IMG/VR virus record: IMGVR_UViG_3300021962_000292
Span: 1 to 36,601 of that record
Length of the DNA: 36,601 bases
Source: a virus
Strand: one strand, 5' to 3'
The notes beneath the pieces were generated by a model. That model saw only the letters and a list, made by a program, of their open reading frames with translations. It did no database searches and was not told the origin of the DNA. This document shows, in pieces, positions 925-7,691 of the stretch (positions are counted from its first letter, which is position 1; each line of letters starts with the position of its first letter). The position numbers were made by a program, and so were the translations under genes.

Positions 925-1677
925 ATGGCTATAGATAAAAAGATTGCACAAAGTATGGATAAGGATAGGGAAGATATCCTTCAGAAACTTCTTAGTGAGG
1001 TTCCCGCAGACTCAGAGATTATTTTAGATCTGCCATCCAGAAGTAAGTTTTACAATGGAGTAAGCCAAATTGTTGTAAAGCCAATGACGTTTGAAAACGA
1101 AAAGAACGTTGTTGCAAATTTAAAGAGAGATGTTGATCCTATCAATACTTTGCTGGCTGATTGTGTAAAAGGAGTTAACATATCCGACCTGTTAATATTT
1201 GACAAGGTCTATATCTTAATGAGATTAAGACAGCTTTCTTACGGGGAGAACTACGAGTTTAAAGTAGATTGCCCTAAGTGTGGTAAAGAGTCTCAAGTAT
1301 CAATGTCACTTAACGATTTAATCGTAAACGAGATTCCTGACGATCTAACCGATCCTAGAGAGGTAACTCTCCCAGTATGTAAGAAGAAAGTTAAAGTTAG
1401 ATTTCCTAGAGTTAGAGACGAGAGCTTTTTAATGACTGCCGAACAAGTTAATAATAATATTTATAAGCTTGTTGAGTCGGTAGAGGGTATCACAGACCTC
1501 TTAATTATTAATCAGTTTATTAAGAAACTGCCCCTTAGAGACATAAAAGCTATAGTTAAAGAAATTAATAGGACCGACTTAGGTATGGATCCTAGAGTGC
1601 TGTTTGAATGCCCTAAGTGCTTTAAATCAACGGAGGTTAGCATTCCAATCACAGCAAATTTTTTTTCAGTCAGCTAA
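925..1677 (+). CDS. 26: gp26-like baseplate/tail assembly protein (0-frame product)
   Basis: This 250-residue protein resembles the T4 gp26 baseplate-hub family (T4_baseplate type): an N-terminal helix, then a beta segment LPSRSKFYNG and VVKPMTF, then the helical stretch FDKVYILMRLRQLSYG followed by YEFKVDCPKCG. Two Cys pairs, C116-x2-C119 and C229-x2-C232, could form a zinc ribbon. An upstream in-frame TTG at 874 would overlap the divergent helicase, so ATG 925 is preferred; it has AAGGA at 913-917. The gene ends just after an 8-T run where a -1 shift would extend it (see 925-1856). By position upstream of the tape measure it behaves like a tail assembly chaperone or hub assembly factor. The gp26 assignment rests on recalled family features and synteny. 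Confidence 0.65.
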   Translation: MAIDKKIAQSMDKDREDILQKLLSEVPADSEIILDLPSRSKFYNGVSQIVVKPMTFENEKNVVANLKRDVDPINTLLADCVKGVNISDLLIFDKVYILMRLRQLSYGENYEFKVDCPKCGKESQVSMSLNDLIVNEIPDDLTDPREVTLPVCKKKVKVRFPRVRDESFLMTAEQVNNNIYKLVESVEGITDLLIINQFIKKLPLRDIKAIVKEINRTDLGMDPRVLFECPKCFKSTEVSIPITANFFSVS

Positions 1678-1856
1678 TTGATGAAGTAAATATAGAAAAC
1701 TTACTTTATCAAGCCTACATATTAGTTAGCAAGCTTCGTTTTTCTTACTCTGACGTTAAGAATATGACTAAGCATGAACGAGCCTTGTTTATTAAGTTTT
1801 ACGTCAAAGAACTAAAGGAACAAGAAGATGCTTATAGGCGCAGTACAAGCAAATGA
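925..1856 (+). CDS. gp26-like protein, predicted -1 frameshift extension (310 aa)
   Basis: Slipping back one base on T-TTT-TTT (1659-1665) after residue F247 opens a 63-codon extension reading from 1665 to a TGA at 1854-1856. The extension reads FSQLIDEVNIENLLYQ..., then KLRFSYSDVKNMTKHER, then LFIKFYVKELKEQEDAYRR. It is charged and helical, has no early start codon of its own (the only ATG is at 1764), and fills the 150-base gap before the next gene, overlapping that gene's start by 29 bases. This is the layout of G/GT tail-assembly chaperone frameshifts upstream of tape measures. In T4, gene 51 follows gene 26, so the extension might replace a separate gp51-like part. An assembly error in the T run is the main alternative. 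Confidence 0.6.
1659..1665 (+). other. Candidate -1 slippery heptamer T TTT TTT
   Basis: Eight T residues occupy 1659-1666. In the zero frame the codons are AAT TTT TTT TCA, so positions 1659-1665 form an X-XXY-YYZ heptamer with all T, which allows both tRNAs to re-pair in the -1 frame. The zero frame ends nine bases after the run (TAA 1675-1677), the +1 frame ends at TGA 1679, and only the -1 frame stays open, for 63 codons. No downstream pseudoknot was worked out. Confidence 0.6.
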
Positions 1857-2766
1857 CCGTAACAATAACCCCCCTCAATTATCCAAGGTGGGGTTACAAG
1901 TTTTCTTTATGCAGGATGGAGCTTATCAAGATCCATTTCAAATTAGTGCAGTTTCAATATTCAAGGCAGCAGGAACCTACAGCCCATCTTCAATCCTTAA
2001 CACCGATGAGTTAATAGCTTCATCGGTGTCTGGTTCCATACTGATGAACTTCGCCAACTCATCAGCCGATACAACTAATGCAGCATTTGATCCTTCAAAC
2101 TGTGCTGCCGGAGCCAGTGGCATTTATCGTTTAGGCCCCGGAAACTATGCTGTTCTTTTAGATGGTGAAGTATCTCAATCAGGTGTAGTAAATCTTTACG
2201 GCGCAAATACAGTAATAAAAAATACTGTTTCAAACATCGGAGACTTTGTAGATGTCTGGACCATCAAGATGGTCGCAGGCTCGGAACTAGAGACGGTCCT
2301 AAACTACTTCACGTTAACCAGAGGTAATTTCTTTACAGTCACTGAACCTATACTGTTTAGAAGCAGAACCAGATTATTAAACAATTCAGTAATTCTTGGT
2401 TCTAAAGTAGATCTAAAGATTGATACTGAGATAACGGTTGAAAACAAAAACATAACTGACGAAGTTAAGAACGTCATCAGAACCTCTGCTTTAAGATCTC
2501 CTTCAATTGAAATCTACAAGCTTAACGACGAACTCAACTTACCAGCTAGGATAACCGTGTCATCTTACTCAGACACTTCTGCTTTAACAAGTGTTAATAG
2601 TGCAGATACTATCGTGTTCACTTGGGATACGGAACAACTTAAGACTCACCCACAAGCTTTGTTAGGTAAGTTCGGTGGTATAGTAGGAATGTATGCTATT
2701 CAAGTTAAATACAATCTATTTAACCAAAGAATAGTCAGTCCCCTAATGCATCTAACTGTCGAGTGA
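1828..2766 (+). CDS. Virion-type structural protein of unknown function
   Basis: This 312-residue protein has no recognised enzymatic motif. It is rich in Ser, Asn, Thr and Val, with beta-type segments such as VGLQVFFMQDGAYQDPFQIS and YRLGPGNYAVLLDGE, and the C-terminal third (ITVSSYSDTSA, IVFTWDTEQL, YAIQVKYNLF, VSPLMHLTV) looks like a beta sandwich. No signal peptide or membrane segment is evident. The start has AAAGGA about 8 bases upstream and overlaps the predicted frameshift extension of the gp26-like gene, suggesting coupled translation. Its 3' end overlaps the convergent primase gene by 32 bases. Placement between the gp26-like gene and the tape measure suggests a tail or baseplate accessory part; that is inference only. 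Confidence 0.55.
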   Translation: MLIGAVQANDRNNNPPQLSKVGLQVFFMQDGAYQDPFQISAVSIFKAAGTYSPSSILNTDELIASSVSGSILMNFANSSADTTNAAFDPSNCAAGASGIYRLGPGNYAVLLDGEVSQSGVVNLYGANTVIKNTVSNIGDFVDVWTIKMVAGSELETVLNYFTLTRGNFFTVTEPILFRSRTRLLNNSVILGSKVDLKIDTEITVENKNITDEVKNVIRTSALRSPSIEIYKLNDELNLPARITVSSYSDTSALTSVNSADTIVFTWDTEQLKTHPQALLGKFGGIVGMYAIQVKYNLFNQRIVSPLMHLTVE

Positions 2767-3727
2767 TACTAAACTTGAAATAAGGTGTCGTTGCAGCCTT
2801 AATCGCTTCAACTAGACACTTGGCGTTCCTAGAGCACTTTGTTAGATAAAAGTCGTTCCAATCCTTACTACCAAAGGGAACGGCAACAGAGATATCAGGC
2901 ATTCTAGCCTCTCTTCGTAAAGTATCAAATCTTTTAATACCTTGTAACCCAGCGTTATCGTTATCATAACAAACAACGATAGGACCACGATATTGTTTAA
3001 GCTGATCTAATTGGGCTTTGGATACGGAGCAGGAGATTGTGGTGGTAGCGTTTAAACCGCAGTTCTGGAGGGTTATAGCATCGATTGCGCCCTCACAAAT
3101 GTACAGAGGGTCTGTGGAGTCATATTCAAACGGATAAAGGACATTAGCCGAGGGGATGTTTCTGGCGTTAAGATACTTAGGTTGCATACCATAGAGGAGT
3201 GCACGACCTTGGAAATACATGTAGTCCCCGGTCGCAATCCTATACGGGATGATAACCCTGTCCCTGAAGAAGCCCTCTGAGGAGGCGTAAAAAGTCCTAT
3301 TAGCCCCGAACCAATCCCATACGCCTCTTTCCTCAAGGTACATCCACGCAAGCGATCCAATGACCGTATACGGCTTTGAGTGCTGGAATACGGGCTGGAA
3401 GAAACACTTATCGGTATCCCCAGCGACAGTCTTGGGGGTTATCTTCTTAACTTCATCGTCTGCAAGGAAGGTTTCGATAAGAAACTTCTCGTAGGCACGC
3501 TGGTAAGATATGTTCTCTAACTTTGCGTACAAGGTAATAAAGTTACCTTTGTTACCAGTCTTAAAGCATCTCCAAAGTCCATTGTCTAGGTTGACCGACA
3601 TGTGCCTCTTGTAGTCGTGTTCTAAGAACACCGATGGCACTATAAGTTCAGAGTCATCGCTAGAAATTCTATAATTGGTATTGAACTTTCCCAGCAAATA
3701 CTCTCTAATGTAGGAAGAAGAGATCAT
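2735..3727 (-). CDS. 61: DnaG-type DNA primase, T4 gp61-like
   Basis: The 330-residue length is close to T4 gp61 (about 340). An N-terminal CHC2-like region (about residues 28-63) keeps the fold pattern MSVNLDNGLWRCFKTG but has only C54 and a nearby His; V30 and T57 stand where Cys would be expected. RVIIPYR, YFQGRALLYG and PKYLNAR (157-189) match the primase RNAP-basic region. The TOPRIM motifs are YICEGAIDA (E212) and YDNDNAG (D255, D257). It should make RNA primers with a replicative helicase. An in-frame stop lies two codons before the ATG, fixing the start; no SD is visible. The start codon touches that of the nuclease gene (CATATG), and the 3' end overlaps the convergent structural gene. 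Confidence 0.85.
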   Translation of the reverse strand: MISSSYIREYLLGKFNTNYRISSDDSELIVPSVFLEHDYKRHMSVNLDNGLWRCFKTGNKGNFITLYAKLENISYQRAYEKFLIETFLADDEVKKITPKTVAGDTDKCFFQPVFQHSKPYTVIGSLAWMYLEERGVWDWFGANRTFYASSEGFFRDRVIIPYRIATGDYMYFQGRALLYGMQPKYLNARNIPSANVLYPFEYDSTDPLYICEGAIDAITLQNCGLNATTTISCSVSKAQLDQLKQYRGPIVVCYDNDNAGLQGIKRFDTLRREARMPDISVAVPFGSKDWNDFYLTKCSRNAKCLVEAIKAATTPYFKFSITRQLDALGD

Positions 3728-4522
3728 ATGTTTTTATCAACACTAAGTAATACTAAATCTGATGTAATAGACCAGTGCCTGAAGAAGTACGAGTATAAAT
3801 ATATTTGGAAGTTCCCGGGATTTCCATCTAAAAACGAGGATTCTTTGAATTTTGGCTCGTACATCCATAAAATTTTTGAGGAAGGCTACAAAGACAATGA
3901 TATCAAGACTCTTGAAAAACTCGCTGAAGACCTGAAAAAATCTTACAAAGTTCCTTATCAATTCAGGGACAAGACGCAGGAATGCTTGGACAACTTCTTA
4001 AAGTTTAACTCCAAGCTGGGCGAGACGTTAGCTACTGAGTACGAGTTTAAGATAGAGCTAGTGGAAGGAATAACTTACACTGGATTTATTGACAGGATAG
4101 TTGCTGGTAAAGAAGGTGGAATATTAATTATTGATTACAAGACTTCTAAGTCTGAAAAGAATCGAGTGCAACTGTTCAATGATAACCAGCTTAAAGGTTA
4201 TGCTTTTGCAGTAGGTCAAATCTTTAAGAAGGACTTGAAAGATATCTACTGTGGACATTATTACCCACTAACTGGTAACTTTGTAGATATCCAGTACCCC
4301 CAAAGCAGCATCAACAAGTGGAAGAAGGAAGCTGTCGATAGAGCTTGGAAGATCAGGAAGAAGAAGGCTGACGAGTTCCATCCAAGCAAGAATACTTTCT
4401 GCGAGTACTGCGAATATCAGCAGATGTGTCCAGCTTTCTGTGCAGCCCATGATGTGGCTGTAAGGATTGAAGAACAGAAAGTACTAAAGAAGAAGCTGGA
4501 TGAAGAGACTAAGAAACAGTAA
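3728..4522 (+). CDS. PD-(D/E)XK exonuclease, Cas4/RecB-type with Fe-S cysteines
   Basis: This 264-residue nuclease has all core motifs of the PD-(D/E)XK superfamily: a FGSYIHKIFEEG helix, GFIDRI (D122), IIDYKTSK (D136, K138) and the QLKGYA helix (Q154). Four cysteines in the Cas4/AddB pattern, C17 plus C225-x2-C228-x5-C234, suggest a 4Fe-4S staple joining the two ends; C238 is an extra Cys. The length fits phage Cas4/RecB-like nucleases, which process DNA ends in recombination or degrade host DNA. AGGAAGAAGAG precedes the ATG. It is divergent from the primase with no spacer, and convergent with the small minus-strand gene (14-base overlap). No cas1, cas2 or repeat array is present, so a CRISPR role is not indicated. 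Confidence 0.85.
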   Translation: MFLSTLSNTKSDVIDQCLKKYEYKYIWKFPGFPSKNEDSLNFGSYIHKIFEEGYKDNDIKTLEKLAEDLKKSYKVPYQFRDKTQECLDNFLKFNSKLGETLATEYEFKIELVEGITYTGFIDRIVAGKEGGILIIDYKTSKSEKNRVQLFNDNQLKGYAFAVGQIFKKDLKDIYCGHYYPLTGNFVDIQYPQSSINKWKKEAVDRAWKIRKKKADEFHPSKNTFCEYCEYQQMCPAFCAAHDVAVRIEEQKVLKKKLDEETKKQ

Positions 4523-5603: not shown

Positions 5604-7691
5604 ATGGCTAAAAAAGATGAATTAAGGGATTTAGAAATAAAGATGATTTCTTTTCTAGGGAGTGTAAATGACTCTTTAGAAAAAGCATCTACAAATTTTC
5701 AAACTCTTAATACTAACTTAGAAATCGCAGCTAGGTCTTTAGGGGATAGAGGTCCAGACGGTCTGGTAGGAAATTTACAAATTTTAAAAGATTCTATAAA
5801 AAAGATAGTTTCTGAAATATCAAATATAAATGTCCCAGCAAATGGAATGGGTAACTCAGGTGGACTAACACCATCACCTTACGATTTTATTATAAGTTTT
5901 CCTCCGGTAACTCCCCCACCTATTCAACCACCTGTAATTCCCCCACCTTTACCACCCCCACCACCACCACCAGAACCACCAACTAATAAACTTGAAAGAA
6001 TATTGGATAATTATTTTCAAGGTAACAGTGATGACAATGGCCTGAATTATTTTACAGGTCAAATTATTTTACAAGCATTTACTGAATTACAAAAAGTAAC
6101 TACAATGTTTTTCGATGGGGTGAGTAATCTTATTCCTTCGATTGATAGTCTTTCTATAGTTACTAATCTTTTAGATAAGGTTTCTTCAAATATAGCAGAA
6201 TTACCAAACAAAATAATAAGCTTGAATCAAAATTTATTAGGAATGGGAACCAACATACAAGATTTTAAAGATCAAGTTGGTTTCATGACAAATGAATTAG
6301 CTGGGAGCACTGCTCAAAATCTACAAAATGCGGCAACTTTGTATTCCCAAGGATTTAGGGGTAACAATAAATCTTTGTTAGAACTAGCAGCAATAATGGA
6401 TCTAACAGGACAAAGAACCTCAACTCTTACTAATGATTTCACTAGAATGTCTACTGTTATGGGATTAACTAACAGACAAATGAATGTTCTCGCAGAAGTT
6501 GTTAGACAAAGTTCAGATGATTATAAAGTAAAGTCTGACGAACTAATAGAAGCATTAGGAAAAGTTCAGAATCAAAACGTTATGGCTACTGCTGGTTTCG
6601 GTGCAACTTTTATGAGAAGTTTAACTCCTCTTCTTGGTGAGTTTAAAAGAAATAGCACTGAGATAGTTGGATTGGTAAATGCTTTAACTAAAACTGATAC
6701 TTTGTTAAAACTTGCTCCAATTGATCCCCAAATAACTTCTTTAGCTAGAAGGATGGAAAGGGCGGGTAGTGCAGAGGAATTAAAGTCTATCTTAATTCAA
6801 ATAACAGGAAGGCTTTCTAGTTTTGCACAAATGATGGCAGGACAAGCAGGAGCAGCAGGATCTGCTGGTTCCCTCCCAACTACTGCAATACTAGCTGATA
6901 TATTAAATTCTATAGGAATGCCATTAGCAGACGCAACTCAATTATTTAGAGCTTTAACGGGTCAATTAGATGAGTATACAATAAAATTACAACAGAGCCA
7001 ACAGGTGCAAGATAGCTATGCAGCCGCAACTCAAAAACTAGCTAATGCAGCACTCCCTTTTATAACTAGTTTAGTTAATATGGCTACTAGCATAATTAAT
7101 TTTATTGGTGGTGGTGGAGGGTTTGTAATTCTTTTTGGATCTTTACTTTTTCTTGCTAAATCTTTTGTATCTCAAGCTGTGAGTATAGCAACTACTACTC
7201 TTTCCTTGTATCAATTAAGACTACAAATTTTGAGTATGACTGTATTAACTAATGTTAATAATGCGTCGTTAAGACAAAGTATTATCAGCTTAGTGTCATT
7301 TGCATCCACTGCTTCCTTCTGGGCAGGAGTTCTTTCTTTTGGATTAACTGCAATCCTAGGTGTTATTGGTGGAATTGCAGCTTGGAGCGCAATGGATTCA
7401 GACTCAACTGAATTAAACACTGATGCTATCTCAAAAAATACTGCCGCTCTTCAAAACAATTCTGATATAAGATTTAAAGATGCTACTGCACAAAACATCT
7501 TCCTAGATACCATGAATAGAAATATTGCTTTTGTGTTAACAAGAGAATCTGCAGTTCAAGACGCTTTAAAACAAATGGTTTCTCAGGGTCAAGTACAGCA
7601 AGATCAAATGAAAGCTTTGATTAACACTGCTATGGCTCAATACATGGCAACACAAAACTTGGGAGCAACTAGACCAGCAGTAGGTCCATAG
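5604..7691 (+). CDS. Tail length tape measure protein
   Basis: The 695 residues have the tape-measure pattern: a helical N-terminus (1-80), a long helical Gln/Asn/Leu-rich middle with few charged clusters, and Gly-rich hydrophobic segments near the C-terminus at about 499-525 (INFIGGGGGFVILFGSLLFL) and about 564-594 (WAGVLSFGLTAILGVIGGIA), typical of proteins that enter the host membrane. Residues 100-126 are almost pure proline (including seven in a row), an unusual rigid spacer. It would set tail length inside the tube and later help DNA passage. T4 gp29 is somewhat shorter (about 590). GTGAG precedes the ATG. It lies directly upstream of the junction and hub genes, matching the order in myophages and PBSX-like tails. 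Confidence 0.8.
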   Translation: MAKKDELRDLEIKMISFLGSVNDSLEKASTNFQTLNTNLEIAARSLGDRGPDGLVGNLQILKDSIKKIVSEISNINVPANGMGNSGGLTPSPYDFIISFPPVTPPPIQPPVIPPPLPPPPPPPEPPTNKLERILDNYFQGNSDDNGLNYFTGQIILQAFTELQKVTTMFFDGVSNLIPSIDSLSIVTNLLDKVSSNIAELPNKIISLNQNLLGMGTNIQDFKDQVGFMTNELAGSTAQNLQNAATLYSQGFRGNNKSLLELAAIMDLTGQRTSTLTNDFTRMSTVMGLTNRQMNVLAEVVRQSSDDYKVKSDELIEALGKVQNQNVMATAGFGATFMRSLTPLLGEFKRNSTEIVGLVNALTKTDTLLKLAPIDPQITSLARRMERAGSAEELKSILIQITGRLSSFAQMMAGQAGAAGSAGSLPTTAILADILNSIGMPLADATQLFRALTGQLDEYTIKLQQSQQVQDSYAAATQKLANAALPFITSLVNMATSIINFIGGGGGFVILFGSLLFLAKSFVSQAVSIATTTLSLYQLRLQILSMTVLTNVNNASLRQSIISLVSFASTASFWAGVLSFGLTAILGVIGGIAAWSAMDSDSTELNTDAISKNTAALQNNSDIRFKDATAQNIFLDTMNRNIAFVLTRESAVQDALKQMVSQGQVQQDQMKALINTAMAQYMATQNLGATRPAVGP

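Follow-up and report, generated by a model that had tools for sequence, protein, structure and literature searches.

Frameshifts in the tail assembly chaperone genes of tailed phages were reportedly described by Xu, Hendrix and Duda in 2004, and the tail assembly chaperones of T4-like phages are said to have been identified by Vladimirov, Gautam and Davidson (Virology 2022). In phage lambda, according to one account (PMC5009743), gpG binds the tape measure protein, whereas the partner of the T part of gpGT is the tail tube protein, gpG and gpGT standing at about 30 to 1. For T4-like phages, passages of two papers lead back to Vladimirov et al. 2022: the PRFect paper (PMC10885494) cites that work for phages with a short gene and a longer fusion gene, with no frameshift, and the Adele paper (PMC12846349) names it as the source for poly-T −1 signals in the TAC-N genes of T4-like phages. 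T4 gp51 itself is described in PMC3004832 as an essential hub assembly protein of unknown function.

The window analyzed here is the whole of a viral record of 36,601 bases, with family matches that include a baseplate wedge protein and a head protease. We put at roughly nine in ten the probability that its gene at 925–1677 (Table 1) encodes a T4-type tail assembly chaperone, made in a predicted short form and, by a −1 frameshift, in a long form. The 3′ end of the gene reads AAT TTT TTT TCA GTC AGC TAA, with AAT at 1657–1659; the −1 frame remains open to the TGA at 1854–1856, and 247 plus 63 residues give a long product of 310, exactly as an earlier note on this DNA had read it. That note had also described the extension as filling a gap, which proved accurate: the ATG of the next gene, at 1828, lies within the 3′ end of the −1 tail, and since that gene begins only there, positions 1678–1827 would be empty without the tail. 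No ATG, GTG or TTG occurs in the −1 frame of the window before +105 nt from the slip start.

Table 1. Features of the chaperone locus in the window
Feature	Coordinates	Strand	Basis or remark
gp26-like gene, zero frame, 250 aa	925..1677	+	ATG at 925; PF12322 and phrog_150
Putative slippery heptamer T TTT TTT, Phe-Phe codon pair, within T8 at 1659–1666	1659..1665	+	
Zero-frame stop TAA	1675..1677	+	
Predicted 12-bp hairpin, candidate stimulator	1678..1712 (arms 1678–1689 and 1701–1712)	+	Fold prediction
−1 extension, 63 residues and stop, gp51-like C-terminal domain	1665..1856	+	phrog_634, dN/dS, structure model
Next gene, 312 aa	1828..2766	+	Begins within the 3′ end of the −1 tail

The 312-residue product of the gene directly 3′ of the chaperone (1828–2766) has no match in Pfam or PHROGs. 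Tail genes are interleaved in the window with genes of replication and repair type, namely a UvsW-like helicase on the minus strand at 3–893 (ResIII, E 1.4e-19), a Toprim/primase-like protein on the minus strand at 2735–3727 (Toprim_2, E 1.7e-16) and a PD-(D/E)XK nuclease at 3728–4522 (E 1.6e-24). Further downstream, 5604–7691 encodes a protein of 695 residues, some stretches of which are rich in proline and others hydrophobic; its look alone makes it a candidate tape measure. It gave no family match, and the place of the chaperone just upstream of the tape measure is therefore itself only a candidate in this window.

The zero-frame protein matches PF12322 with 83.2 bits (cut-off 24.5; E 2.7e-23) and the 'baseplate hub' family phrog_150 with E 8.3e-28. 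Two cysteine pairs, C116/C119 and C229/C232, are invariant in a 40-sequence alignment and may form a split zinc-ribbon-like module, although the resemblance to zinc ribbons is weak. The body was modeled by AlphaFold with pLDDT 91. When the model was compared with 604 chains by VIA-align, YqbN (3klu) came first (Z 6.3, 80 residues aligned) and the HK97 tail assembly chaperone 2ob9 second (Z 6.1, 90 residues aligned), followed by the next entry at Z 3.6; scores near 6 lie below 8 and, by the tool's own note, can reflect a common arrangement. YqbN is also called a tail assembly chaperone in the text of PMC9603447. Foldseek returned no PDB match for the gp26 model at E ≤ 0.001, and the gp26 profile had no sequence match in the PDB; the best structural match in BFVD was SP-15 (E 2.9e-18). 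Judged by its model, the gp26-like protein looks like the short form of a tail assembly chaperone (TAC-N, the role of lambda gpG).

The −1 tail matches the gp51 family phrog_634 with E 6.5e-4. Across 40 tails of the family, this profile was matched at E ≤ 0.01 by 24 and missed by 16. The tail model comprises three predicted helices (pLDDT 88) and has no match to a solved structure at E ≤ 0.001. As the gp51-type C-terminal part of a long form (TAC-NC), it would take the place of lambda gpT. The gp26-like body and gp51-like second domain suggested in the earlier note are thus both recovered by profile searches, and its analogy with lambda G/GT agrees with the identity of the two best structural matches, both tail assembly chaperones, at modest Z. 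In T4 gp51, a gp26-like body (PF12322, E 3.9e-52, residues 1–201) and a phrog_634 domain occupy one frame, and the gp51 proteins of phiAS4 and Acj9 likewise join the two in a single frame. Because T4 gp51 consists of a gp26-like body and this tail, the 310-residue product resembles gp51; on sequence grounds, T4 gp51 is an independent version of the predicted long form. An X XXY YYZ heptamer was found in none of the three gp26 genes of T4, phiAS4 and Acj9 within their last 60 nt. T4 therefore encodes the long form in a second gene, and the window very probably produces it by frameshift.

To collect relatives, a three-sequence profile was run against IMG/VR; it yielded 87, of which the best 80 were kept and, with the window, make up 81 loci, dereplicated by shared 12-mers to 56 representatives. 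All 81 loci (the window and the best 80 of 87 relatives) carry an in-frame T TTT TTY ahead of the zero-frame stop, and in all of them the −1 tail is open over 60–69 residues. The distance from heptamer to stop, first base to first base, is 16 nt in 76 of the 81, with a range of 10–25. TTTTTTC accounts for 54 of the heptamers and TTTTTTT for 27; the T run is six bases long in 54 loci, seven in 21 and eight in six. An open reading frame of at least 100 codons begins before the tail ends in 76/81. The −1 shift on T TTT TTT and its conservation in homologues, as the earlier note had proposed, therefore extend to every locus of this set, and a homologue with one continuous frame, which would have spoken against it, is absent from the 81; only the distant T4-type gp51 is built in this way, as a gene additional to gp26.

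The constraint is visible in both frames. NNT TTT is present in 56 of 56 representatives, whereas the corresponding synonymous shares elsewhere are 67% for AAT, 74% for GAT and 77% for TTT; from codon usage, the chance of such uniformity is about 1e-16 if the representatives are independent, a figure that overstates the surprise because the 56 are related. For the tail, median dN/dS is 0.25 (59 distinct tails) and falls below 0.5 in 95% of 1,248 usable pairs; these come from 1,711 pairs, of which 463 were left out as lying outside the divergence limits (in 239 of the 463, synonymous sites were saturated). Entropy at codon positions 1, 2 and 3 of the −1 frame is 0.94, 0.61 and 1.25 bits. By these measures the tail evolves under purifying selection. 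Dinucleotide shuffles of the downstream DNA left the −1 frame open in 59 of 20,000 trials for the window and in 133 of 16,800 over the representative loci; conservation is the stronger test of the −1 frame than this shuffle-based estimate of chance. Both a phased, conserved X XXY YYZ heptamer near the zero-frame stop and a conserved, selected −1 frame, as expected of a frameshift site, were thus found. A tblastn search with the window tail returned only six weak phage records (E 4–9), and a Shine-Dalgarno-like 4-mer lies upstream of the heptamer in only 13 of the 56 representatives. A scan for the DNA pattern gave 92 stretches; among the 80 listed, three came from contigs known to carry the gene.

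These data bear on three other explanations. Under transcriptional slippage, RNA polymerase would add a U on the T run, and some mRNAs would encode the fusion directly. The T8 of the window makes this conceivable; six Ts, however, are usually too few for polymerase slippage, and the six-base run in two thirds of the loci (54/81) argues against it, since what is kept is the codon-phased heptamer T TTT TTY and not the conserved long homopolymer that slippage would lead one to expect. We regard this route as unlikely. Separate translation, in which the tail would be a free small gp51 produced by re-initiation or from an internal start, appears more doubtful still. The deposited records of S-PM2 and S-SM2 do annotate gp51 as a short gene of its own, and a possible −1 start codon occurs up to +40 nt in most cyanophage-type loci (69 of the best 80 of 599). 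In the window-type set, however, the stretch of −1 frame between its upstream limit and +60 nt is free of ATG, GTG and TTG in 64 of 81 loci, a start at the common in-frame ATG at +105 would halve the tail domain, the slippery heptamer is kept at synonymous sites, and T4 possesses the fused form. That a sequencing or assembly error with a wrong T count broke one continuous gp26–gp51 gene is scarcely credible: homopolymers are error-prone and T4 gp51 demonstrates that a one-frame fusion can exist, but the same frame break recurs in 81/81 loci from many separate assemblies, with the stop 16 nt away in 76 and with T6, T7 or T8 alike.

We therefore favor a −1 frameshift by the ribosome, for which a stimulatory element was sought downstream. 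The predicted 12-bp hairpin of the window begins 12 nt after the heptamer, and the fold of the 102 nt downstream is unremarkable (z −1.15; 25 of 200 shuffles fold as well). A scan of 31 successive 45-nt windows over the 56 representatives gave one strong minimum, at +15 relative to the slip start, where mean z was −1.65; in all other windows it lay between −0.61 and +0.25. Against synonymous recoding, the mean z was −1.11 for +15 to +60 and −0.77 for +8 to +60, and ten control stretches ranged from −0.78 to +0.10, so that the best control equals or beats the +8 to +60 value; the folding signal thus shrinks under synonymous recoding and depends on where the stretch is cut. A common stem register was seen in 22 of the 56 representatives, and in 20 of these the stem starts 8 nt after the heptamer and includes the zero-frame stop; in the window and its nearest relative the stem is registered differently. 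In the covariation test, carried out on a set without the window, 79.7% of cells pair versus 45–55% for slid partners, but the result was negative, as the shuffle control reached the observed value in 267 of 500 runs. RNAalifold found no common fold, neither on 56 nor on 35 sequences. The downstream hairpin is a plausible but unproved candidate stimulator, suggested by folding and without covariation support.

The frames, the slippery site, the conservation of both, and the homology of body and tail to T4 gp26 and gp51 can be read from the sequences themselves, and a working mechanism may be proposed on this basis. Most ribosomes would stop at the TAA ending at 1677 and release the 250-residue short form, while a minority, with Phe-tRNAs on UUU UUU, would move one base backward on U UUU UUU and continue translating as far as the UGA ending at 1856, yielding the long form with its three-helix gp51-like domain. 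The slip frequency would presumably set a fixed ratio of short to long product. By analogy with lambda, many short copies may coat the tape measure and a few long copies may recruit the tube or hub.

A second set of loci with the same arrangement was collected as relatives of a cyanophage profile, of which the best 80 of 599 were kept. All 80 bear the −1 signal; the heptamer stands at −12 in every locus but one, where it stands at −9. The −1 frame stays open for 100 nt or more in 78 loci, and in the remaining two it reaches the contig end. Of these best 80, 69 have a start codon in the −1 frame within +40 nt and 11 have none; since a start codon so often follows the stop, re-initiation may also supply a free tail in these phages. 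Twelve named phages (S-PM2, S-SM2, AG-345-L05, C48C1, Atu_ph07, ACG-2014b, S-CAM8, HTVC008M, V05, Cr30, phiM9 and Sf-CH1b) show TTTTTT followed by C, T or G at −9 to −12, counted from where the gp26 stop codon ends, and in each the −1 frame continues unbroken through this heptamer. When ten shifted-frame tails were scanned with phrog_634, only those of S-PM2 and C48C1 were significant; LR756500 reached E 0.14, and the tails of SP-15, LIS04, GXN1, BRock, LR756508, LR756511 and Atu_ph07 had no match.

Existing annotation of these phages is uneven. ACG-2014b, S-CAM8 and Sf-CH1b have 175–180 nt unannotated between gp26 and the next large gene, a gap filled by a −1 gp51-type frame, and in C48C1 gp51 is annotated as only 105 nt (3720–3824 of the locus), beginning inside the domain; following the −1 frame upstream lengthens this gene across the slippery heptamer.

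In other relatives the direction of the shift differs. The longest open frame after gp26 is +1 in SP-15, LIS04, GXN1, BRock and two huge-phage records, and −1 in a third huge-phage record, LR756511. A further 34 loci (33 viral and one from a MAG contig) were examined; the stop is held in 31, the other three (L286, L301 and L308) being left out because no stop lies within the locus, and 30 of the 31 are +1 and one (L312) is −1. One +1 locus (L290) has a short tail. The resulting 36 +1 loci appear to hold SP-15 twice (L004 and L280) and include pairs that look like near copies (L284/L285, L291/L292, L294/L295, L297/L298 and L304/L310). TTT-C was found inside the overlap in 28 of the 36, usually at the second Phe codon, and the first Phe codon may be TTC; the eight loci without it are LIS04, L311 and six with CCC-A (L297–L299, L303, L304 and L310). 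TTT-C lies 48–57 nt before the end of the stop in L294, L295 and LR756500 and 30 nt before it in L288 and L296, and at such distances it need not be the shift site. At TTT-C, a P-site tRNA-Phe could re-pair from UUU to UUC. A different +1 site, xCC CGA, was considered and dropped. The last codons of the gp26-like gene of LR756500 are CTT CTT TAA in the zero frame, and the +1 frame has no stop across them, an ending reminiscent of the RF2-type CUU-stop +1 site. The MAG contig (Erysipelotrichaceae, CACYRE010000001.1) carries a +1-type chaperone gene and is possibly phage or prophage. In LIS04 the homologue directly precedes the annotated tape measure gene, and in SP-15 one short annotated gene lies between them.

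Despite the opposite frames, −1 and +1 tails are homologous: profile–profile comparison gave a probability of 96.7% (E 4.3e-10), versus 0.1–0.7% for four column-shuffled controls. The tie of the SP-15-type +1 tails to gp51 rests on this profile comparison, since the family search gave no link. A tree of 71 rows, built by a quick method and with long branches for BRock, LR756500, T4 gp51, Atu_ph07 and phiM9, placed the window group with the +1 group, separated from cyanophages and T4 by a branch with support 99. The tree needs two changes of frame label, one of them forced by its starred branches, and leaves the ancestral direction open. We consider it likely that the direction of frameshifting flipped within one T4-type tail assembly chaperone family about the same Phe-Phe pair, with −1 on T TTT TTN or +1 leading to the same long-product architecture. 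The window group and the cyanophage-type, Vibrio, Caulobacter, rhizobial and Pelagibacter phages would then be −1 users, while SP-15-type phages, Streptomyces phage BRock and some huge phages would shift +1, often by UUU to UUC at TTT-C; codon-position constraints would move with the frame, and T4 would manage with a second gene and no shift.

As for precedent, the earlier note knew of no T4-like gp26 frameshift, a claim of novelty that does not hold: such chaperones and poly-T −1 signals are already in print, to judge from the passages of PMC12846349 and PMC10885494. The note's finding is real and was correctly read, but it is a known phage trick in a new phage group. A tail chaperone of the haloarchaeal myovirus HSTV-2 has been called very likely +1, and indifference to shift direction has been remarked for capsid and tail extensions of Listeria phages, both in the account given by PMC5009743. 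A limited literature search, outside Vladimirov et al. 2022, found no description of the +1 form of the gp26/gp51 pair, and within the same limited search the −1/+1 switch in this family is the part for which no description was found. These results suggest what is likely to be encoded, and for what purpose, in a region that phage records leave blank or split. They also indicate that what T4 has as two separate hub-assembly genes is matched by a single frameshifted gene in the relatives examined, which makes T4 look like the exception. The three arrangements, −1, +1 and a second gene, form a natural series in which one may ask how the proportion of the two chaperone forms is maintained in a phage as decoding changes.

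Lambda gpG/gpGT and the chaperones of other tailed phages are likewise two nested products of one gene, obtained by shifting −1 shortly before the first frame ends, and the N-terminal domain model of the window protein resembles the HK97 chaperone; unlike the lambda type, the window protein has an additional zinc-ribbon-like module and a T4-type gp51-like tail, and other genes lie between the chaperone and the likely tape measure. In T4, phiAS4 and Acj9, gene 51 is separate and full-length and is encoded on the other strand from gene 26, where the window very probably has the frameshift instead. Marine T4-like cyanophages and their relatives (S-PM2, S-SM2, HTVC008M, Vibrio V05 and Caulobacter Cr30) share the −1 gp51 arrangement of the window, but identity is low (32% over 97 residues for S-SM2), their seven-sequence consensus lacks the CxxC pairs, and an extra start codon often follows the zero-frame stop. 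The 'baseplate hub' genes of the SP-15 and Listeria LIS04 type are homologous to the window gene in body and tail, yet they encode the tail in the +1 frame, and their Phe-Phe site often has TTT-C, whereas the tail of the window lies in the −1 frame.
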